DNA from: Sinorhizobium sp. 8-89
GTDB taxonomy: Bacteria > Pseudomonadota > Alphaproteobacteria > Rhizobiales > Rhizobiaceae
Assembly (NCBI RefSeq): GCF_030124325.1
Contig: NZ_JASKLR010000001.1
Coordinates: 354,427-418,426 of the forward strand
Direction: 5' to 3'
DNA length: 64,000 bases
In this document: in pieces, positions 6,212 through 52,404 of the stretch
How the letters are laid out: the number at the start of each line of letters is the position of its first letter
Numbering within the stretch: position 1 is the stretch's first letter
Made by a program: the position numbers and the translations under genes
The notes under the pieces: model-generated
What the model was told of the DNA's origin: nothing
The model's database searches: none
What the model saw: only the letters and a program-made list of their open reading frames with translations

Positions 6212-7398
6212 TCCAGCCGAAGGCTACGGAAGTGAGCAACGACGCCCATGCCGCCGCCGATCCCCATCATTGCCAGGCCCTCGGCTTCGGAGGGGGCCGC
6301 AAGCATCTGCGAAAACAGCCGGACGATGAGGATTGCCCCCGACGCGCCGTAGGGATGTCCGAGCGCAATCGCGCCGCCGTCGCGATTGACGCGGGCCGGC
6401 GCGATATCGAGCTGGTCGAGACTGCCCAGAACCTGTGAGGCGAAAGCCTCGTTGAATTCGATGAACTCGATGTCGTCGAGGTCGAGCGCCGGGTTGCGCG
6501 CACGAAGCTTCGCCATCGCCGGGACGGGTCCGAGCCCGAGCAGGCCAGGATGCACGCCCGCCGCCGTCGCGTCGACGAATTCCAGGGCAAATGGAACCCC
6601 AAGCCGGCGTGCCTCGGCGAGGTTCGTCAGCAGTACCATGGCAGCTCCGTCATTGATCGGGCAGGCATTGCCGGCGGTCACGGTGCCGTCTTTGACGAAA
6701 ACCGGCTTCAGCCGGGCAAGCGTCTCGGCGGCTGCGTTTGCCCGGGGGCATTCATCGCTGGAGACGAGACCCGTCGGCGTTGACACCGGCACGATCTCGC
6801 GCTGGAACCTGCCGGCCGCCGCGGCCGCGACGGCGCGTCGGTGGCTTTCCAGCGCGAACCGGTCCTGCCTTTCGCGGGAGATGCCGCAGGCGGTGGCGAC
6901 ATTCTCGGCAGCGACGCCCATATCCGGGTCGCCGATGGAATCGGGCGCCATCCGCGCGCGCTTCACTGGCTGCAGCTCCTCGTCGGGTACAAGCGGCGGG
7001 CGAAGGCGGATATGGGCGCGGCTGGCGCTTTCGCTGCCGCCGGCAAGATAGAACCGTCCTGCGCCGGCCTGAATTTGCCGCGCTGCGAGTGTAACGGCTT
7101 CCAGCCCCGAGCCGCATTGCCGGTCGACCGTCACGCCCGGAATGGCGACGGGCAGGCCGGCTTCGAGCGCGGCAAGTCGCGCGAGGTTGCCGGCGCTGTT
7201 GGCGGCATTGCCAATGAGCACGTCGTCTATTTCATCGCCGTCGATGCCCATGTCCGTGATGATCCGGGCAATCAGCGGCGCGGCAAGCGTGGCCGGCTCA
7301 ATTTTGCCCAGACTGCCGTTCACGCGGCCGATCGGCGTCCGCAGGGCGGCGATGATGACGGGTATGCGTGCCGGATCAGACGAGGCGTTCAAGGGCAC
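6199..7398 (-). CDS. thiolase (acetyl-CoA acetyltransferase family)
   Basis: A protein of about 399 residues with the thiolase hallmarks: VTVDRQCGSGLEAVTLAARQI (nucleophilic cysteine near 85), GGSESASRAH, NEAFASQVLGSL, and the C-terminal NRDGGAIALGHPYGASGAILIVRL with the catalytic histidine. The usual second catalytic cysteine of the CxG motif is not obvious: the C-terminal GIGGGMGVVAHF has glycine where CIGGGMG is normal, so condensation or thiolysis may be altered. I chose the GTG at 7398, with GGAGG 6 bases upstream. It overlaps the ligase gene by 23 bp, so the two are translationally coupled at the end of the bioMNY operon. Confidence 0.88.
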   Translation of the reverse strand: MPLNASSDPARIPVIIAALRTPIGRVNGSLGKIEPATLAAPLIARIITDMGIDGDEIDDVLIGNAANSAGNLARLAALEAGLPVAIPGVTVDRQCGSGLEAVTLAARQIQAGAGRFYLAGGSESASRAHIRLRPPLVPDEELQPVKRARMAPDSIGDPDMGVAAENVATACGISRERQDRFALESHRRAVAAAAAGRFQREIVPVSTPTGLVSSDECPRANAAAETLARLKPVFVKDGTVTAGNACPINDGAAMVLLTNLAEARRLGVPFALEFVDATAAGVHPGLLGLGPVPAMAKLRARNPALDLDDIEFIEFNEAFASQVLGSLDQLDIAPARVNRDGGAIALGHPYGASGAILIVRLFSQMLAAPSEAEGLAMMGIGGGMGVVAHFRSLRLDQTR

Positions 7399-8875
7399 CG
7401 TTCCCCTCCGCGATCCATTGCCGGAGCTCCTTGGTGGCAATCTTGCCGGAGGCCGTCATCGGCATGTCACGGCAGAGCCAGATCTTGCGCGGATGCTTGT
7501 AGCGCGGCAGGGCGGCATCAAGATGGCGCTGCAGCGCCCTATGGTCGAATGCATCTCCGCGCGGCTGGACGACCGCCGCGAGCTCGGCGCCGAGGTCGGG
7601 GTGATCGAGACCCAGGACCGAGACGGCGCGGACTTCGCCGGCAGCCATGATCGCGGCCTCGACCTCGGACGGATAAATGTTGTTACCACCGGAAAGCACC
7701 ATGCCGCCGGCGCGGCCGATGAGGTGCAGCGTGCCGTCGGGATCAAGGAAGCCGAGATCGCCGACCGTTGCGAGATTGCCGTTCCGGGAAAAGCCCACGC
7801 CGTCGCCGCCAGCAATATAGCCATCGGAGATGAGCGCGCTTTCGACGAAGATCGTACCGATCTCTCCCGCGGGAAGATCGTTTCCCGTCTCATCAAGGAT
7901 CGCGAGACGAACGCCGGGGAACGCCTTGCCGACCGCAGTCGGGGCGAGACTGTCTGACGCATCGGCGACGCTGATGAAGCCCAGTTCGGAAGCGCCGTAA
8001 TATTCGATCATCCGTGACTCGGGAAAGGCAAGGCTCGCCGCCTTCCGGTCCGCAGGCGTGAGCTTGGCTCCGGCAACGGTGATCGCTTCGACGGAGGGCA
8101 GTGTGGTGCCCTCTGCCTGTTCGCAGAGCCGTCGCAGCATTGTCGGCACCAGCACGAGCCGCTTGACCTTCCCGGCTGAGATGGTCGCCATTGCGTGCCG
8201 TGGGTCGAAATGCCGGGCACCGACGAATTCCGCGCCTGCCTTCAGAGTTTCCGCAAGCGCGTAAAGCGTCAGTCCATGCGCGAGCGGACCGGGCGCATAG
8301 GTCGTCGTCTCCGCTCCGACGTCAAAAAAGTATCGCCCTGTTTCGAGGCTGAGACGCCAGGAGCGGCGATCGCGGATGATCGCCTTCGGCTCTCCCGTGG
8401 TGCCGGACGTGAAAACGATGAGGAAAGGTTCGCCGTCTTTGCCAACAGGAATGGGGCGGAAGCCCTCGGTCGCAGTCTCGAAGAGCGCGGTTTCGCCAGT
8501 CGCCGGCCGTTCGAGCCGCAGCGCATCGCCCTCCGTATGAATGACGATATCGGGCCGCAATTGCTCTACCATTCGCCGGCGCGTGGCCGTTGGCAGATGC
8601 GGATCGATGAGCGCGGCGCAATTGCCGCCTGCGGTCGCGGCGACGAAGGCGGCGGGAAAGAGCGGGTGGTTGCCGCTTTGAATTGCGATCAGTCGCGCCC
8701 GATCTGACAGAATACTTCCACCCGCCCTGGCGGGCACCCATTGTTCAATCAAGCCGAGAATGCTGCTTGCGTCGGCGGCAAGTTGTCCGAAAGTAAAAAT
8801 CCGGCCTTCGATGCGGAAGGCGGGATCGTGCGGGCGGCTCACCGCATGACGCATGATTGCTTCGGCGAGCGGCAT
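7376..8875 (-). CDS. AMP-forming acyl-CoA synthetase
   Basis: A 499-residue ANL-superfamily enzyme. The phosphate-binding loop IVFTSGTTGEPKAI is near residue 155, the substrate/adenine motif MIEYYGASELGFIS near 290, VGDLGFLDPDGTLHLIGRAGGMVLSGGNNIYPSEVE near 375, and the catalytic lysine in MTASGKIATKEL near 480. Such enzymes activate a carboxylic acid to acyl-AMP and then acyl-CoA. It starts 4 bp after bioY and overlaps the thiolase, so it belongs to the biotin-transporter operon. A dicarboxylic or fatty acid related to biotin synthesis (for example pimelate) is a plausible but unproven substrate. Confidence 0.9.
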   Translation of the reverse strand: MPLAEAIMRHAVSRPHDPAFRIEGRIFTFGQLAADASSILGLIEQWVPARAGGSILSDRARLIAIQSGNHPLFPAAFVAATAGGNCAALIDPHLPTATRRRMVEQLRPDIVIHTEGDALRLERPATGETALFETATEGFRPIPVGKDGEPFLIVFTSGTTGEPKAIIRDRRSWRLSLETGRYFFDVGAETTTYAPGPLAHGLTLYALAETLKAGAEFVGARHFDPRHAMATISAGKVKRLVLVPTMLRRLCEQAEGTTLPSVEAITVAGAKLTPADRKAASLAFPESRMIEYYGASELGFISVADASDSLAPTAVGKAFPGVRLAILDETGNDLPAGEIGTIFVESALISDGYIAGGDGVGFSRNGNLATVGDLGFLDPDGTLHLIGRAGGMVLSGGNNIYPSEVEAAIMAAGEVRAVSVLGLDHPDLGAELAAVVQPRGDAFDHRALQRHLDAALPRYKHPRKIWLCRDMPMTASGKIATKELRQWIAEGNGALERLV

Positions 8876-8879
8876 CGCT

Positions 8880-9443
8880 TCAGGCGCGGGCCGGCAGCAG
8901 CGGATAGCCGGCGTAGACGGCGCGGGCGGCGAGCGTGGCGATCGCGGCTTTCAGCAGATCGCCCGGGATAAAGATGAGCGAGCCTGTCGCCGCGGTAAGA
9001 AGCGGTGTTCCAGAAACGGCAGACAGCCACGGCACGCCGATCGCGTAGAGGACGACAATGCCGCCGATGACCGAAGCGAGGAAGAACCCGACGAACTGGC
9101 GGATTTCCCGCTGGCCTTCATGAACGAAACGTTCGGCGACGAGGCCGGTGACAAACGCCGCGACCGCCCAGCCGAGGATGAAGCCGCCAGAGGGGCCGGC
9201 CAGAACAGCCAGGCCGCCGCGCCCGCCGGAAAGCACAGGCAGGCCAATGGCGACGAGGAGGACGAACAGCAGGAAGGCGAGCGCACCGCGCTTCGCGCCG
9301 ATGATGCAGCCGGCAAGCATCACGCCCATCGATTGCGCCGTGATTGGAACAGGGATGAAGCCGAGCGTGATCGGCGGAATGAGGCCGAGTACCACAACGA
9401 TCGCGGCAAAGAGCGCGATGAGGACGAGATCTCTGGTGTTCAT
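8880..9443 (-). CDS. bioY: BioY biotin-binding S component of ECF transporter
   Basis: A 187-residue membrane protein with about six hydrophobic segments. It carries the BioY features FIPVPITAQSMGVMLAGCIIGAKRGALAFLLFVLLVAIGLPVLSGGRGG and GPSGGFILGWAVAAF. BioY captures biotin at the cytoplasmic membrane and works with an energising pair, BioM (ATPase) and BioN (transmembrane). All three are in one minus-strand operon here, in the order bioM, bioN, bioY, followed by the ligase and thiolase. A second, solo bioY lies at 51398 with different control. Confidence 0.93.
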   Translation of the reverse strand: MNTRDLVLIALFAAIVVVLGLIPPITLGFIPVPITAQSMGVMLAGCIIGAKRGALAFLLFVLLVAIGLPVLSGGRGGLAVLAGPSGGFILGWAVAAFVTGLVAERFVHEGQREIRQFVGFFLASVIGGIVVLYAIGVPWLSAVSGTPLLTAATGSLIFIPGDLLKAAIATLAARAVYAGYPLLPARA

Positions 9444-9475
9444 ACGGTCTTACCCTTTTATTAGAAAGCGCGAAT

Positions 9476-10081
9476 TCATTGCCGGCGAAATCCGCGAGCG
9501 TCAATGGCTGCGGCAATCGTATCCGCATCTTTGAGCGTCAGGATGATGAGCGGCCCGATAATCGTCAGTGGCCGTATCGGCAGCCCGCGCGCGCGATGCG
9601 CCTCGCGGATTGCCTCGTATCGGGCGAAGATATCAGGAACGAAACGCAGTACGAGGCCGAGCGCAAGGCTGACGTCGGCAGCACGCAGTAGGCCAAGGCG
9701 CTCGAACGGCTTCACGAGGAAAGTGACCTCGTCCATGAAGGCGCCGATTGTCGTCGTCGCGGTAACCGCGGCGGCGAAAAGCACGAGCGCCATCAGCCGC
9801 AGCAGCAGCGCGGCGACCTCGGCGACAGGAAGAAGGAAAAGGTTGATAGCGGCCAGGACGAGTATGGTGAAGAAAAGGAAACCGATTCGCGCGAGAGCCT
9901 GGCGGAACGTCAGGCCGAGCGAGAAGTAGAGCCACCCGCAGAGCAGGAAGGCGGGTGCAAGCAGATAGAGCGATTGCGTCGCGAAGAGCGCGAGGCTGAG
10001 AACCAGAAGAGCAAGAAGCTTCGCCCGCACCGGCAGGCGGTGAAACCAGCTTCTGCCCTCCACATAGAGGCTTGTCAGCAT
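9476..10081 (-). CDS. bioN: ECF transporter transmembrane protein BioN
   Basis: A 201-residue CbiQ/EcfT-family membrane protein. Hydrophobic segments start with VRAKLLALLVLSLALFATQSLYLLAPAFLL. The EcfT coupling region is visible as the charged RYEAIREAHRARGLPIRPL near residue 155, and the chain ends DADTIAAAIDARGFRRQ. It links the BioY substrate unit to the BioM ATPase. It overlaps the bioM gene by 7 bp, and 32 bp separate it from bioY. Confidence 0.93.
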   Translation of the reverse strand: MLTSLYVEGRSWFHRLPVRAKLLALLVLSLALFATQSLYLLAPAFLLCGWLYFSLGLTFRQALARIGFLFFTILVLAAINLFLLPVAEVAALLLRLMALVLFAAAVTATTTIGAFMDEVTFLVKPFERLGLLRAADVSLALGLVLRFVPDIFARYEAIREAHRARGLPIRPLTIIGPLIILTLKDADTIAAAIDARGFRRQ

Positions 10082-10755
10082 CCCGCCACCTCGTGATAGC
10101 GCTTGATCGTTTCGGCGGGCGGCCCGTCGGCAAGCAGCCGTCCCTCGTGGAAGAGCAACAGCCTCTCGACGCCTTCGACGAGCTCGAGGTCATGGGTGAT
10201 GACGACCGTGTCCTCGTCGAGTGCGTCGATCGTGTTGGCGACCATGCGGCGGTTGCGGAGGTCGAGCTGGTTGGTTGGTTCGTCGAGGATCAGGATCTTC
10301 GGACCGGTGACGACGACGCTGGCCATGGCGACGAGCTGCGTTTCCCCGCCCGAAAGCTCATGTACACGGCGCCTCGCAAGGTGGGTCACTCCGAACCGCG
10401 TCAGCGCCGCCTCGGTCCGCGCGGCGATCTCCTGTGCAGGCAGGCCGCGATTCTTCAACCCGAATGCGATATCGTCCGAGACGATCGGCATGATCAACTG
10501 GTGCTGCGGATTCTGGAAGATGAAGCCTGCCTCGGCGAGGACGGCCCTGTCGTCCTTGACCGTATCGAGCCCGTTGACCGTTACCCGGCCTTTGCTCGGC
10601 TTGACGAGCCCGTTGATCAGCCGCGCGAAGGTGGTCTTGCCGGAGCCGTTGAGGCCGATAATGCCGATCCGTCGTTCGTCGAGAGCGAGTGTCAGAGGAT
10701 GAAGCGCGACCCGTTCGCCGAAGCTGACCGAGCAATCGGTAAAGCGAATATCCAA
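10075..10755 (-). CDS. bioM: ECF transporter ATPase BioM
   Basis: A 226-residue ABC ATPase with every motif intact: Walker A GLNGSGKTTFARL near residue 38, Q-loop FIFQNPQHQLIMPIVSDDIAFGL, signature LSGGETQLVAMA near 135, and Walker B ILILDEPTNQLD near 157, followed by the switch histidine in VVITHDLELVEG. The FQNPQHQL form of the Q-loop is typical of ECF/cobalt-type importers. It heads the bioMNY-ligase-thiolase operon, and a sigma70-like promoter lies just upstream. Confidence 0.94.
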   Translation of the reverse strand: MDIRFTDCSVSFGERVALHPLTLALDERRIGIIGLNGSGKTTFARLINGLVKPSKGRVTVNGLDTVKDDRAVLAEAGFIFQNPQHQLIMPIVSDDIAFGLKNRGLPAQEIAARTEAALTRFGVTHLARRRVHELSGGETQLVAMASVVVTGPKILILDEPTNQLDLRNRRMVANTIDALDEDTVVITHDLELVEGVERLLLFHEGRLLADGPPAETIKRYHEVAGC

Positions 10756-10785
10756 GCCTTGTCCCTCGCAGTTTGCGTGGTGGCT

Positions 10786-10814
10786 CTATAGGGCAAGTCG
10801 ATCGGGAAGGGCAA
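10786..10814 (-). promoter_or_regulatory. candidate sigma70 promoter of the bioMNY operon
   Basis: On the minus strand TTGCCC (10814-10809) and CTATAG (10791-10786) are spaced by 17 bases, close to the rhizobial sigma70 pattern CTTGAC-N17-CTATAT. The start codon of bioM is about 30 bases downstream. No BioR box was seen here. Confidence 0.45.
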
Positions 10815-10875
10815 TGCAGCCGGCCATTCGCACAACCGTATTTGAAAAATGGGAATAAAAGCCTACTCTCCTGCT

Positions 10876-12075
10876 ATGACGATTCGCCTCTCCAATCGCG
10901 ATGCCCGGCGCATCTTCCTCGCGAAACAGGGCCTCACCGCCGCGCCGCATCGCGCGCTCGGCAAGGACGGGCTGCTGAAACTCATTAGCGATCTCGGCTT
11001 CGTCCAGGTTGACAGCATCGCAACGGTCGAGCGGGCCCATCACCAGATTCTCTTTTCGCGCAACCAGACCTACCGCCGCGAACATCTGACCGAGTTGCTG
11101 GAGAAGGATGGCGAGCTTTTCGAGCACTGGACTCATGATGCCTCGATCATTCCGAGCACCTTTTTTGTCTACTGGAAACATCGCTTCAAATGGGAGAGCG
11201 AAACGCTGCGCGAGCGCTGGCGCAAATGGCGGGGCGAGGGGTTCGACGACGGCTGCGACGAGACTTACGAACGGATCGTCAACAACGGTGCGGTGATGGC
11301 CCGCGATCTCAAGGCGGACAGTCACGAATCCGGCGGCTGGTGGAACTGGCACCCGTCGAAGACGGCGCTCGAGGTGCTCTGGCGCCAAGGCAAGCTGGCG
11401 ATTGCCCGGCGGGAGAACTTCCAGAAAGTTTACGACCTCACGGAACGCGTCATTCCCCCGCATCACTATCAGGGGGAGGTGAGCCACGAGGAATTCGTCG
11501 ACTGGGCTTGCCGCAGCGCTCTCGACCGGCTGGGCTTCGCGACCCATGGAGAAATCGCCGCCTTCTGGGACCTGGTGTCGCCGGATGAGGCGAAAGCCTG
11601 GGTTGCCGCACATCGGGACGAGCTTTGCGACGTTCTGGTCGAATCCGCCAATGGCGGTAAGCCGCGCCCGTCCTATGCCTTCTCCGGCTTCCCCGACGAC
11701 TTCGGCGACATCACCGAGCCGCCGGCACGCATCCGCGTTCTCAGCCCTTTCGATCCCTTGCTGCGTGATCGCAATCGAACGGAGCGACTTTTCGGCTTCT
11801 TTTATCGAATCGAAGTTTTTGTGCCGGAGGCGAAGCGCGAATACGGCTACTACGTCTTTCCGTTAATTGAAGGTGATCGGCTGATCGGCCGCATCGATAT
11901 GAAAGCAGACCGAAAGCTTGGACGACTCGATGTCCGCCGCCTCTGGCTGGAGCCGGGCGTCAGGGCCTCTTCGGGCCGCATGGAAAAGCTTGCTGCCGAG
12001 CTTGACCGCATCGCTCGCTTTACCGGCGTCGAAGAGGTCAAGCTTCTCGACGGCTGGAATGCTTCCGTTTCCTGA
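10876..12075 (+). CDS. YcaQ/AlkX-like winged-helix DNA glycosylase
   Basis: A 399-residue protein of the HTH_42 family. The segment LGFVQVDSIATVERAHHQILFSR near residue 40 contains the QxD catalytic motif (here QVD) known from E. coli YcaQ and Streptomyces AlkZ, which unhook interstrand crosslinks or excise bulky alkylated bases. HDASIIPSTFFVYWKHRF and the C-terminal LSPFDPLLRDRNRTERLFGFFYRIEVFVPEAKREYGYYVFPLIEGDRLIGRIDMKADR are also typical. Length matches the YcaQ branch (about 410). The ATG at 10876 is preferred to the upstream ATG at 10849. It is divergent from bioM and followed by tldD. Confidence 0.88.
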   Translation: MTIRLSNRDARRIFLAKQGLTAAPHRALGKDGLLKLISDLGFVQVDSIATVERAHHQILFSRNQTYRREHLTELLEKDGELFEHWTHDASIIPSTFFVYWKHRFKWESETLRERWRKWRGEGFDDGCDETYERIVNNGAVMARDLKADSHESGGWWNWHPSKTALEVLWRQGKLAIARRENFQKVYDLTERVIPPHHYQGEVSHEEFVDWACRSALDRLGFATHGEIAAFWDLVSPDEAKAWVAAHRDELCDVLVESANGGKPRPSYAFSGFPDDFGDITEPPARIRVLSPFDPLLRDRNRTERLFGFFYRIEVFVPEAKREYGYYVFPLIEGDRLIGRIDMKADRKLGRLDVRRLWLEPGVRASSGRMEKLAAELDRIARFTGVEEVKLLDGWNASVS

Positions 12076-12082
12076 AAATTTC

Positions 12083-12111
12083 CTTGGCTTGCGGCCCTGT
12101 GCTTCCTAAAT
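12083..12111 (+). promoter_or_regulatory. candidate sigma70 promoter of tldD
   Basis: CTTGGC (12083-12088) and CTAAAT (12106-12111) are spaced by exactly 17 bases, near the Sinorhizobium sigma70 consensus. The tldD ATG is 39 bases downstream. Confidence 0.55.
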
Positions 12112-12149
12112 GGAGGCTCAGGACCTTGAACCAGCGGGAGCGGACGACC

Positions 12150-13565
12150 ATGAACACCGATCTGATAAGCCTCTTCGATGCGGACGAGGCGACGGTCCGT
12201 AAGGTTCTGTCCGAGACGCTTGCTGGCGCCGACGACGGCGAGCTCTTTCTCGAGCATGCGCAAGCCGAGGTCCTTTCGTTCGACAACGGCCGCCTCAAGG
12301 GTGGCAGCTTCAACACCGACCAGGGCTTCGGCCTGCGCGCCGTGGCGGGTGAATCGGTCGGCTACGCGCATGCCGGCGAACTGTCGCTTGCTGCCCTGCG
12401 CAGGGCCGCCGACGCCGTCGGTCAGGTGACGCGCGGCTATGCCGGTTCCTATGCCGCAGCCCCCCAGCGCACCAACAAGAAGCTCTACGGCGACGAGAAC
12501 CCGATCGGCGAACCGACCTTCGAGGCCAAGGTTGCCTTGCTGCAGGAGGTCGACGCCTATCTGCGCGCCAGGGATCCCAAGGTGCGGCAGGTGACCGCCT
12601 CGATCTCCGCCAGTTGGCAGGTGGTCAATATCCTGCGTTCCGACGGTCACCGCGTCCATGACGTGAGACCGATGACCCGCATCAACATCTCGGTCGTCGT
12701 CGGCGATGGCGACCGGCAGGAAACCGGATCGTTCGGCATCGGCGGACGGCGCGGGTTCGGCGACTTCGTCACGGAAGAGAACTGGAAGCGCGGCGCCGAC
12801 GAAGCGTTGCGGCAGGCGCTCGTCAACCTCGAAGCCATCGATGCTCCGGCGGGCACGATGGACGTCGTGCTCGCCTCCGGCTGGCCCGGCGTGATGCTGC
12901 ATGAAGCGGTCGGTCACGGGCTCGAGGGCGATTTCAACCGCAAGAAGACGTCAGCTTTCGCGGGCCTCCTCGGCGAGCAGGTGGCCGCAAAGGGGGTCAC
13001 CGTTGTCGATGACGGCACGATCGAGGCGCGGCGCGGTTCTATTTCAGTCGACGATGAGGGCACTCCGTCCGGCTACAACGTCCTGATCGAGGACGGGAAA
13101 TTGGTCGGCTATATGCAGGACCGGCAGAATGCACGGCTGATGGGCATGGAGCCCACCGGAAATGGCCGCCGGCAGGGCTACGCACATGTCCCGATGCCCC
13201 GCATGACCAACACTTACATGCTTTCCGGCGATCGCACGCCAGAGGAGATCATCGCTTCGGTTAAGAAGGGCGTCTACGCCGTCTCCTTTGGCGGCGGCCA
13301 GGTGGACATCACCTCCGGCAAGTTCGTGTTCGGCTGCACCGAAGCCTATCTGATCGAGAACGGCAAGGTCGGTGCGCCCGTCAAGGGGGCGATGCTGATC
13401 GGCAATGGACCGGACGCGATGAAGCGGGTGACGATGGTCGGCAACGACAGCAAGCTCGATACCGGCATCGGCAATTGCGGCAAGGCCGGCCAGTGGGTGC
13501 CGGTCGGTGTTGGCCAACCGCATCTCAGAATGGATCAGATCACCGTCGGCGGCACGCAGGCATAA
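12150..13565 (+). CDS. tldD: metalloprotease TldD
   Basis: A 471-residue TldD. The zinc motif HEAVGHGLEGDFNRKKTSAF near residue 250 is the family HExxxH region, and PMPRMTNTYMLSG and FGCTEAYLIENGK are conserved C-terminal blocks. With TldE (PmbA) it forms a protease that degrades unfolded peptides and matures microcins. TldE is not in this window. The start MNTDLISLF at 12150 has GGGAG about 9 bases upstream. Confidence 0.94.
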   Translation: MNTDLISLFDADEATVRKVLSETLAGADDGELFLEHAQAEVLSFDNGRLKGGSFNTDQGFGLRAVAGESVGYAHAGELSLAALRRAADAVGQVTRGYAGSYAAAPQRTNKKLYGDENPIGEPTFEAKVALLQEVDAYLRARDPKVRQVTASISASWQVVNILRSDGHRVHDVRPMTRINISVVVGDGDRQETGSFGIGGRRGFGDFVTEENWKRGADEALRQALVNLEAIDAPAGTMDVVLASGWPGVMLHEAVGHGLEGDFNRKKTSAFAGLLGEQVAAKGVTVVDDGTIEARRGSISVDDEGTPSGYNVLIEDGKLVGYMQDRQNARLMGMEPTGNGRRQGYAHVPMPRMTNTYMLSGDRTPEEIIASVKKGVYAVSFGGGQVDITSGKFVFGCTEAYLIENGKVGAPVKGAMLIGNGPDAMKRVTMVGNDSKLDTGIGNCGKAGQWVPVGVGQPHLRMDQITVGGTQA

Positions 13566-50345: not shown

Positions 50346-50524
50346 TTGGGAGTCAGTTCCTTGGGAGAAAAGGCGCCACTGGCAGGGGAGGAGTCTGGAT
50401 CGCCACGAGCGCGACAGCAGGCGGAGCTTTATACGATGGCGGCCCAAAGCTCAACCTTTGGAAATCGCCGGAAGAGTACCCGGGCTTCCTCGACAGCGTC
50501 GGGATGCGCCTCTATCTGTAGCGC

Positions 50525-51193
50525 ATGAACAGGGAACGCGACGACACGCTTGCGAGCCGCATCAGCCGCGTGCTTGCCGAAAGGATCATCTCCGGAGTGC
50601 TGCCGCCGGGCGAGCGGCTGCGGCAGGATCACGTTGCCGAGGAGTTCGGCGCCAGTCACGTTCCTGTGCGCGAGGCCTTTCGCCGGCTTGAAGCGCAGGG
50701 GCTTGCGGTCAGCGAACCGCGCCGTGGCGTGCGCGTCGCCGCTTTCGACCTCAAGGAGGTGCGCGAGGTGGCAGAGATGCGGGCCGTCCTGGAGGTTTTG
50801 GCACTGCGCCACGCCGTGCCGCACCTGACGCCGGCGATCCTCGATCGGGCCGAGGCGGCAACGGTTGCGGCCGACCGTTCACGGGACGTGCGCTCCTGGG
50901 AGGCGGCGAACCGCGCCTTCCACCGGATAATTCTCGAGCCTTGTGGCATGCCGCGCTTGCTCGCGGCGATCGACGATCTTCATGCAGCAAGTGCCCGGTT
51001 TCTTTTCTCGGCTTGGCGTTCGAGCTGGGAAGCCCGCACCGATCACGATCATCGCGCCATCCTGGCGGCTCTCCGTCAAGGGAAGGGCGAGGAGGCGGCA
51101 GCCATTCTCGAGCGTCACGTGGGCTGGATCGGCAAGACTCCGGTGAAGACCGCAGCCGGTGAGGTCCACGACGCCTTCTCTATCGTCGGCTAG
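50525..51193 (+). CDS. bioR: BioR biotin repressor (GntR/FadR family)
   Basis: A 222-residue regulator. An N-terminal winged helix (TLASRISRVLAERIISGVLPPGERLRQDHVAEEFGASHVPVREAFRRLEAQGLAV) is joined to a FadR-type helical effector domain (VREVAEMRAVLEVLALRHAV to RSWEAANRAFHRIILEPCG). The neighbouring bioY and three TTATCTATAA-type boxes in the 205-bp gap downstream identify it as BioR, the alphaproteobacterial biotin repressor. A weak half-matching CTATCTGTAG (50512-50521) overlaps its own start region, so autoregulation is uncertain. Confidence 0.88.
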   Translation: MNRERDDTLASRISRVLAERIISGVLPPGERLRQDHVAEEFGASHVPVREAFRRLEAQGLAVSEPRRGVRVAAFDLKEVREVAEMRAVLEVLALRHAVPHLTPAILDRAEAATVAADRSRDVRSWEAANRAFHRIILEPCGMPRLLAAIDDLHAASARFLFSAWRSSWEARTDHDHRAILAALRQGKGEEAAAILERHVGWIGKTPVKTAAGEVHDAFSIVG

Positions 51194-51218
51194 AGGCCGT
51201 CGCTGCGACGATTCAAAA

Positions 51219-51228
51219 TTATCTATAA
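51219..51228. promoter_or_regulatory. BioR box 1
   Basis: TTATCTATAA, an exact match to the BioR consensus TTATMKATAA, 25 bases after the bioR stop codon and 169 bases before bioY. Confidence 0.8.
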
Positions 51229-51342
51229 TTTCTCCAGCCGGAGGCGCGTGGATGCGTCGCTCCAGAGCTTCCATTCGGTTGCGAGCGCCAGTTCGCAGCC
51301 TCATGACTATTGATCGCGTCTCGGCTTACGGCTATTGGATAA

Positions 51343-51352
51343 TTATAGATAG
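51343..51352. promoter_or_regulatory. BioR box 2
   Basis: TTATAGATAG, one base away from the BioR consensus. It is 19 bases upstream of box 3, nearly two helical turns, suggesting side-by-side binding. Confidence 0.72.
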
Positions 51353-51361
51353 TTCCAGAAA

Positions 51362-51371
51362 TTATCTATAA
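51362..51371. promoter_or_regulatory. BioR box 3 overlapping a TATAAT element
   Basis: TTATCTATAA matches the consensus exactly and overlaps TATAAT (51367-51372), a likely -10 element for bioY. The ATG of bioY is 26 bases further on. Binding here would block the promoter. Confidence 0.82.
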
Positions 51372-51397
51372 TTCTGAATTCCAACTTGAGAGAACCA

Positions 51398-51991
51398 ATG
51401 TCCGATCTTGTTTCTGCGCATTCGCCCGTTTTCGATCCGCTGCGTCTCGACGGAAAAGCGTGGCCACTCAAGGCGCTGTTCGTGCTGGCAGGCACAGGCT
51501 TCCTTGCAATCTCCTCGCAGATCAGCGTGCCGATGGTGCCGGTGCCGATCACCATGCAGACCTTCGCAATCACCATGATCGGCGTCATCTACGGCTGGCG
51601 TCTGGGTGTGGTCACCATCCTGGCATGGCTGACGGAGGCCTTGGTCGGGCTGCCGGTGCTTGCCAATGGCGCGGGCGGCATCGTCCACTTTGCCGGTCCG
51701 ACGGCCGGTTACCTCGCCTCGTTTCCGCTGATCGGCGGCCTCGCCGGTTGGCTCGCCGCGCGCGGCTGGACGGGTGATCGGGTGGTGCTGAGCTTCCTGG
51801 CGCACTTCTCCGCCAATATCCTCTGCCTCGTCATCGGTGTGGCGTGGCTTGCCACGCTGATCGGCCTCGAAGAGGCGATCATGTTGGGCGCCGCTCCATT
51901 CCTGCTCGGTGCGGTCCTGAAATCAGCGTTAGCGGCGGCGGTTCTCAAGGCAATCCAGCGCTCCATTCGCAAGCCGGCAGGCCTGTTTTGA
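51398..51991 (+). CDS. bioY: BioY biotin transporter (solo)
   Basis: A 197-residue BioY with six hydrophobic segments. The family blocks are ISSQISVPMVPVPITMQTFAITMIGVIYGWRLGVVTILAWLTEALVGLPVLANGAGG and GPTAGYLASFPLIGGLAGW. Solo BioY proteins can transport biotin without a dedicated BioMN pair. The ATG at 51398 (MSDLVSAHSP) is used; a TTG at 51386 would add 4 residues. It overlaps the DUF1284 gene by one base (TGATG). The paralogue in the BioMNY operon is at 8880. Confidence 0.93.
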   Translation: MSDLVSAHSPVFDPLRLDGKAWPLKALFVLAGTGFLAISSQISVPMVPVPITMQTFAITMIGVIYGWRLGVVTILAWLTEALVGLPVLANGAGGIVHFAGPTAGYLASFPLIGGLAGWLAARGWTGDRVVLSFLAHFSANILCLVIGVAWLATLIGLEEAIMLGAAPFLLGAVLKSALAAAVLKAIQRSIRKPAGLF

Positions 51992-52404
51992 TGGTTCGCC
52001 TGCGCGGGCATCATCTTCTGTGTCTGCTGACCTTCGTGGGCGAGGGCTATACGCCCTCGTTCACCCGCAACTATCGCCAGATTGCCGGTCGCCTTTCGGC
52101 CGGCGAGCCGATCGAGATTGTCGACGGGCCGGACGATATCTGCGCGCCGATGCGGGATGTGCCCGAGGCGCATTGCCGTAACGAAAATATCCGCTGTCGC
52201 GACAACCGGGCTTTGGCTGCGGTATCCAACCTGCTCGGGCTGCCGCTTGGTCCCGGCTCGGTTCTCATTCTCGATGATGGCCGCCTTCAGGACCTGCGCG
52301 GCGCCTTTACGCGTGGCTCTGTTCGCGCCGCCTGCGACGAATGCGAATGGTCCACGCTTTGTACACGCGTCGCGACCGATGGCTTTGATGGCGTGCTCGT
52401 TTGA
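51991..52404 (+). CDS. DUF1284 cysteine-rich protein, coupled to bioY
   Basis: A 137-residue protein: MVRLRGHHLLCLLTFVGEGYTPSFTRNYRQI, then CAPMRDVPEAHCRNENIRCRDN and CDECEWSTLC. Six or more cysteines in two clusters suggest an iron-sulfur or metal site. It matches DUF1284, function unknown. Its ATG uses the last base of the bioY stop codon, so it should be made with BioY and controlled by the BioR boxes. A link to biotin is inference from this coupling. Confidence 0.85.
   Translation: MVRLRGHHLLCLLTFVGEGYTPSFTRNYRQIAGRLSAGEPIEIVDGPDDICAPMRDVPEAHCRNENIRCRDNRALAAVSNLLGLPLGPGSVLILDDGRLQDLRGAFTRGSVRAACDECEWSTLCTRVATDGFDGVLV

Follow-up and report, generated by a model that had tools for sequence, protein, structure and literature searches.

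The 204 bp between bioR and bioY very probably form the control region of a bioY-DUF1284 operon under BioR repression, with a double operator lying over the transcription start and an auxiliary operator, box 1, placed farther upstream. BioR boxes, tandem boxes, BioR control of bioY and a bioMNY operon lacking a box are already published, and the bioY locus is a well-supported, ordinary new case of such control; a few of its details had not been studied before. The features of the gap are listed below by position in the window, that is, the whole 64-kb stretch of DNA that was analysed.

51219-51228, plus strand: BioR box 1, TTATCTATAA; no mismatch to TTATMKATAA; 26 bp 3' of the bioR stop codon.
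51310-51338, plus strand: probable bioY promoter, TTGATC (51310-51315), 17 bp, TATTGG (51333-51338); predicted start at about 51345.
51343-51352, plus strand: BioR box 2, TTATAGATAG; one mismatch; sits on the predicted bioY transcription start.
51362-51371, plus strand: BioR box 3, TTATCTATAA; no mismatch; about +17 to +26 of bioY.

A motif scan found the three boxes where the sequence-only reading had put them, two of them exact and the other with one mismatch. The 19-base spacing of boxes 2 and 3 was also borne out, counted start to start and leaving 9 bp between them; the gap itself, given earlier as 205 bp, is 1 bp shorter (51194-51397, with bioR ending at 51193 and bioY starting at 51398). 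No other site with at most one mismatch occurs in the 64-kb window, and all three fall inside 153 bp. Such sites are expected at 0.84 per window, and 6 of 100 shuffles reached three anywhere in it; the whole-window count taken alone is weak evidence, which the clustering within 153 bp offsets. Across the 7.06-Mb genome the exact consensus occurs at 12 places, compared to three for the reversed control. Two of these 12 sites are at bioR-bioY and three at a second bioR/bioB locus, so that TTATMKATAA boxes stand at two sets of bio genes, bioY and bioR2-bioB, of the same genome.

The predicted promoter ends about 4 nt before box 2, so that the predicted start falls in box 2, and box 3 lies at about +17. 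A strict consensus scan returned no promoter in the bioY region, and TATTGG is a poor match to the sigma-70 consensus. When loci were aligned on box 2, TTGAT was present in 12/12 genus loci and TTGAC in three others (L095, L096 and L146); in an 11-row alignment (G021 absent), TTGAT was the longest invariant run upstream of box 2. The second hexamer, 17 bp further on, reads TATTGG, TATCGG, TATTGA or TACCGG in the genus and TAGTGG, TATCGG and CTAGCG in L095, L096 and L146, respectively. Judged from conservation alone, in loci that are related, TTGAY-N17-hexamer is the probable bioY promoter.

The sequence-only reading had placed the promoter differently, with box 3 overlapping a TATAAT that would serve as the –10 element, so that BioR would compete there with RNA polymerase. 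Box 3 with the next T does make a perfect TATAAT (51367-51372), a start about 7 nt beyond it would give a short leader, and box 3 is identical in all 15 pair-bearing bioY loci compared (the 12 of the genus plus L095, L096 and L146, which are related loci; L090 and L099 duplicate G027 and G004, and the R. rhizogenes-type L156, L161 and L162 were left out). However, with its flank every one of the three boxes contains TATAAT (box 2 on the minus strand), because the hexamer is part of the extended palindrome AATTATNNATAATT. The –35 position 17 bp from the box 3 TATAAT is box 2 itself (TATAGA), with no TTGAC. Outside the operators, conservation falls on the upstream TTGAY and on the second hexamer, 17 bp from it. 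We consider this placement rather unlikely, at roughly one chance in five.

Under the preferred reading, boxes 2 and 3 would together make up a double operator, with box 2 at +1 and box 3 at about +17 of the TTGATC-N17-TATTGG promoter. Two BioR dimers would occupy it, probably jointly since spacing and orientation are fixed, and would block RNA polymerase initiation or early escape. The BioR operator of Agrobacterium tumefaciens is reportedly downstream of the mapped bioBFDAZ start. BioR1 would be supplied by the gene directly upstream, and these boxes may also be bound by BioR2 from the biotin-synthesis locus. Box 1, which lies some 125 bp before the pair and follows closely on bioR, would be an auxiliary operator that goes with bioY.

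The search for BioR covered 60 genomes, 33 of them from the genus; 22 genus genomes (own included) carry BioR1 at 89-100% identity, and the bioR1-bioY locus is present in 12 of the 33. Boxes 2 and 3 are exactly 19 bp apart in all 12 (box 2 of G010 has two mismatches). This constancy, despite divergence of the DNA separating boxes 1 and 2 (46-88% identity in 28 locus pairs, G007 pairs excluded), supports the earlier view of the boxes as bioY operators. Box 1 is kept in 11 of the 12 loci, G003 being without it, and two loci, G021 (L003) and G032 (L007), retain the boxes with a gap between boxes 1 and 2 that is 100 bp longer. This suggests that the distance of box 1 can vary and that the box may not be essential. 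Strict helical phasing between boxes 1 and 2, as for looping, was rejected: the distance is 225 bp in two loci and 121, 125 and 133 bp in relatives. In nine genus loci it is 123-127 bp (variance 1.6), and the much shorter stretch from the bioR stop to box 1 has a variance of 6.0 in ten genus loci, in a comparison of related rows that omits G007 (134 bp) on one side and G021 and G032 (225 bp) on the other. In both L003 and L007 the long gap includes an inverted repeat, which may be a mobile palindromic element; in L003 it reads CTGCATGA...TCATGCAG.

The other ten genus bioR1 loci have lost both bioY and the boxes. Each of the ten genomes has a bioB preceded by one or more boxes with no more than one mismatch; nine show a 19-20 bp pair (at most two mismatches) and G028 a single box. 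None has a second BioR at 60% identity or more. With a single BioR and a boxed bioB, BioR1 is likely the regulator of bioB there. Among the 31 genus genomes at least 90% complete, the 27 with BioR (at least 60% identity) are exactly those with bioB or solo bioY: 26 have bioB and G010 has bioY only, and the four BioR-less genomes have neither. BioR, biotin synthesis and solo bioY thus appear to be lost or retained jointly. G006, G018, G025 and G031 lack bioB, solo bioY and any BioR at 60% identity; they carry bioMNY only and are likely unable to make biotin. G024 (85% complete) has bioB with the pair, yet its best BioR match is 37% identical, with none at 60%.

The regulator gene and its own control elements lie directly upstream of the gap.

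50489-50517, plus strand: probable bioR promoter, CTCGAC-N17-CTATCT, ending 7 nt before the ATG; both hexamers present in 22/22 genus BioR1 loci.
50512-50521, plus strand: eroded autoregulatory BioR box, CTATCTGTAG; three mismatches; 13 nt before the bioR ATG.
50525-51193, plus strand: bioR (BioR1), GntR-FCD regulator of 222 aa; PF00392 and PF07729 over cut-off; placed by the tree among BioR proteins.

The sequence-only reading of this protein as BioR-like stood: it has GntR and FCD domains, and bioY or bioB lies just 3' of bioR in 70/80 named loci, these being the best 80 of at least 408 confirmed. No NCBIfam model scored BioR1 over its cut-off (the best, a phosphonate-regulator model, gave 95.6 bits against 271.5), and so the BioR name rests on gene context, boxes and tree. 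The tree of 84 rows separates 82 BioR rows from two other GntR rows by a 99* branch; it is a quick tree made without experimentally studied BioR proteins, and 37 of its 79 inner branches are weak. A second BioR-like protein, BioR2, 63% identical, adjoins bioBFDAZ in the same genome.

Upstream of bioR itself the window has only the three-mismatch remnant, which is conserved with two or three mismatches in the window and 21 genus relatives (CTATCTGTAG in 18/22); a strict consensus scan reported no bioR promoter. A box within 45 nt before bioR occurs in 56 of the best 80 of at least 408 loci, beginning 13 nt before the next ATG in 53 of the 56, and the remaining 24 are also without one, which indicates that an own-gene operator is not obligatory for BioR. 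In the rows examined among L100-L169 the upstream box stands behind a TCGAC-like element with little or no leader, and in loci with this box bioR may be a leaderless, self-repressed mRNA. The upstream box is absent from all 18 HAD-linked loci, the lineage of the window, and present in 56/62 of the other named loci (same best 80 of at least 408). L120, with just 158 bases before bioR, may or may not be HAD-linked. On the quick tree the HAD-linked label changes twice, and the position of the own BioR2 is unsure.

This distribution bears on a different role for box 1, in which it would serve bioR as a downstream autoregulation site (a roadblock or an antisense start) taken up after decay of the start-codon operator. 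In 9 of the 18 HAD-linked loci, including all eight with bioY, the 60 nt behind the bioR stop contain a box, which fits a site that compensates for the lost upstream box. However, a box at the bioR stop or directly behind it is found in all six bioR-bioYB loci as well, and four of them keep the upstream box too (two boxes are 62-63 bp apart in five of the six). Box 1 is also gone from the ten genus loci that lost bioY although bioR stays, possibly a single event; L165 retains box 1 after bioY loss, but this is read as a deletion scar. Service to bioR is improbable, somewhat more so than a –10 element in box 3, and we prefer to regard box 1 as an auxiliary operator of bioY.

The double operator recurs at bioB. 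A composite pair pattern (at most two mismatches) searched in 33 genomes gave 29 matches, 12 at bioY and 17 at bioB as assigned by coordinates (one being bioB of G024), and none for the control. With orientation not forced, the pair is present at 24 of 30 bioB loci and absent from six. The first box of these pairs is AG-centred in 24/24, and the second is CT-centred in 21, TG-centred in two and CG-centred in one, never reversed. Spacing is 19-20 bp throughout, and orientation does not vary at bioY and varies little at bioB, which makes the joint action of the pair, one half of the earlier proposal of cooperative repression by biotin, plausible. The other half, repression by biotin, is not established, as exogenous biotin raised bioYB more than tenfold in Paracoccus denitrificans and lowered bioBFDA about fivefold, according to the available part of PMC4554459. 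Mesorhizobium-type bioY loci have one strong box and at best a degenerate partner at 20 bp; across 45 such loci the mean partner score at 20 bp was 2.9 sd above other offsets, with a matrix built from just nine distinct sites. The R. rhizogenes-type L156, L161 and L162 have box 1 and one strong proximal box.

Boxes 2 and 3 could in principle act in the bioY leader as an RNA hairpin, instead of or besides being DNA operators. They do pair, as a 13-bp stem of –11.1 kcal/mol (z –2.5; equalled in stability by 2 of 200 shuffles), and the AG-first, CT-second orientation just described would suit a stem. Such pairing is automatic, however, as each box is nearly palindromic, and the changes seen in box 2 across the 15 loci are not compensated in box 3, which is invariant. 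A terminator scan of the bioR-bioY region found no terminator-like site, and the ribosome-binding region is outside the stem. We regard a hairpin as very improbable. That the boxes are relics or chance AT-rich matches devoid of present function is least probable of all: their one-mismatch count in the window is not extreme against shuffles, but the exact pair spacing is kept across 12 species through the divergence between boxes 1 and 2, and the pair pattern had no control match in the 33 genomes.

We more tentatively entertain a wider reading of the BioR regulon, which we hold to be possible, though distinctly less probable than the control region itself. A pair of BioR dimers would bind a dyad-symmetric double operator (ATAGAT, 19-20 bp, ATCTAT) at both bioY and bioB, each unit would have a third remote site (for bioY the one behind bioR; for bioB one within the start of the coding region, in the own genome and some relatives), and bioR autoregulation would have been lost by decay of its start-codon operator. 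If true, a simple repressor would have become a cooperative switch with a fixed regulator level.

An exact BioR box does lie inside the bioB coding start at G000:C10:113846 (L031), 135 bp downstream of the pair's first box; in L103, L104, L106, L111, L113, L114, L121 and L128 a coding-start box lies 155 bp after it. The exact coding-start box is present in the own genome and 8 of 14 named bioB loci, and most genus genomes have two mismatches there. It may be an auxiliary operator or a codon by-product, as protein coding may explain it.

The closest studied parallel is the bioR1-bioYB2 locus of P. denitrificans, as described in the available part of PMC4554459: it too has two BioR proteins, a two-box bioY operon with TTATAGATAG as one box, a separate bioMNY without a BioR box and a synthesis operon under BioR-box control. 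Unlike the present locus, its bioY is followed by bioB rather than DUF1284, and both its bioR genes have an upstream box. A probe with the exact TTATAGATAG 10-mer, from bioYB, was bound by BioR there; both BioR proteins bound bioYB, and either one cut an A. tumefaciens bioB reporter six- to eightfold (PMC4554459, same part). BioR proteins of different origin are called exchangeable in that text, in which no tested biotin-related metabolite altered BioR binding and no BioR ligand was found (PMC4554459). In Brucella, BioR likewise represses bioY and bioBFDAZ, the latter with two boxes, but bioR has its own operator and negative autoregulation, where the corresponding operator is eroded here (PMC4554459 and PMC13209338, as far as their accessible parts go). 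The A. tumefaciens bioBFDAZ operator is almost identical to box 1, whereas bioB has a single box there; bioMNY of that species is reported without a BioR box, as here, and no operator upstream of its bioR is mentioned (PMC4554459, accessible part).

Among the papers listed by a literature search, none gave BioR binding or expression data for this genus. The same listing, with subscription papers outside its scope, included no paper on the bioR-bioY locus of Ensifer/Sinorhizobium and no description of the dyad-symmetric pair common to bioY and bioB, the eroded start-codon operator or the DUF1284 coupling. The locus would extend BioR control of biotin uptake to Ensifer/Sinorhizobium-type genomes, with an operator layout precise enough for testing cooperation. 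The natural series, from one strong box in Mesorhizobium through the pair in Ensifer to some bioB genes with a pair and a further box in the coding region, could help explain how BioR senses biotin, by whatever route, without a known ligand.

The genes under control, and the second biotin transporter locus of the window, are the following.

51398-51991, plus strand: bioY, biotin transporter S component; PF02632, E 5.4e-32; no adjoining bioMN.
51991-52404, plus strand: DUF1284 gene; PF06935; start codon overlapping the bioY stop (TGATG, 51989-51993).
7376-10755, minus strand: bioMNY, then an AMP-binding gene; bioM 10075-10755, bioN 9476-10081, bioY2 8880-9443.

Although bioY had been described as solo, and indeed no bioMN lies beside it, the same window carries bioMNY, and bioY overlaps the DUF1284 gene, so that the controlled unit probably comprises two genes. 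DUF1284 adjoins bioY in 48 of 50 bioR-bioY loci without bioB, in 26 of the 48 by a 4-nt overlap, and is probably the second gene of a BioR-controlled operon. Its residues H7, H8, C11, C51, H61, C62, C115, C118 and C124 are invariant in 13 sequences, and it may belong to the BioR regulon as a metal or Fe-S protein. The predicted fold (mean pLDDT 80) had 0/47 matches in the PDB at E 0.001 or better, the sequence had no convincing PDB relative (one match, E 0.84), and no paper naming DUF1284 was found in the literature search. As an uncharacterised gene coupled to bioY, it is a candidate new part of biotin uptake.

The genome's single CbiQ/EcfT match is bioN of bioMNY, and this bioN could also serve the solo bioY. 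No BioR box of at most two mismatches was found at bioMNY (8000-12500), and the available part of a regulon survey lists bioYMN among BioR targets (PMC5343134). What is apparently the same operon in S. meliloti (a BioY-like gene, then AMP-binding and thiolase genes) has a predicted NolR site and lower expression when NolR is present, according to the accessible text of PMC12445080. An extra BioY in Rhizobium tropici CIAT 899 was interpreted as an aid to biotin scavenging (PMC3557214, in the part available).

Exact boxes elsewhere in the genome were also considered and set aside. The one on C26 lies inside two short overlapping open frames. TTATCTATAA at G000:C38:138335 (L051, about 5336) lies between ccmA-like and aconitase-like genes; it keeps this context in all 11 relatives scanned, without a pair, and is probably a promoter element. 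Another exact box, at C38:302589, precedes a sugar-binding-protein-like gene.
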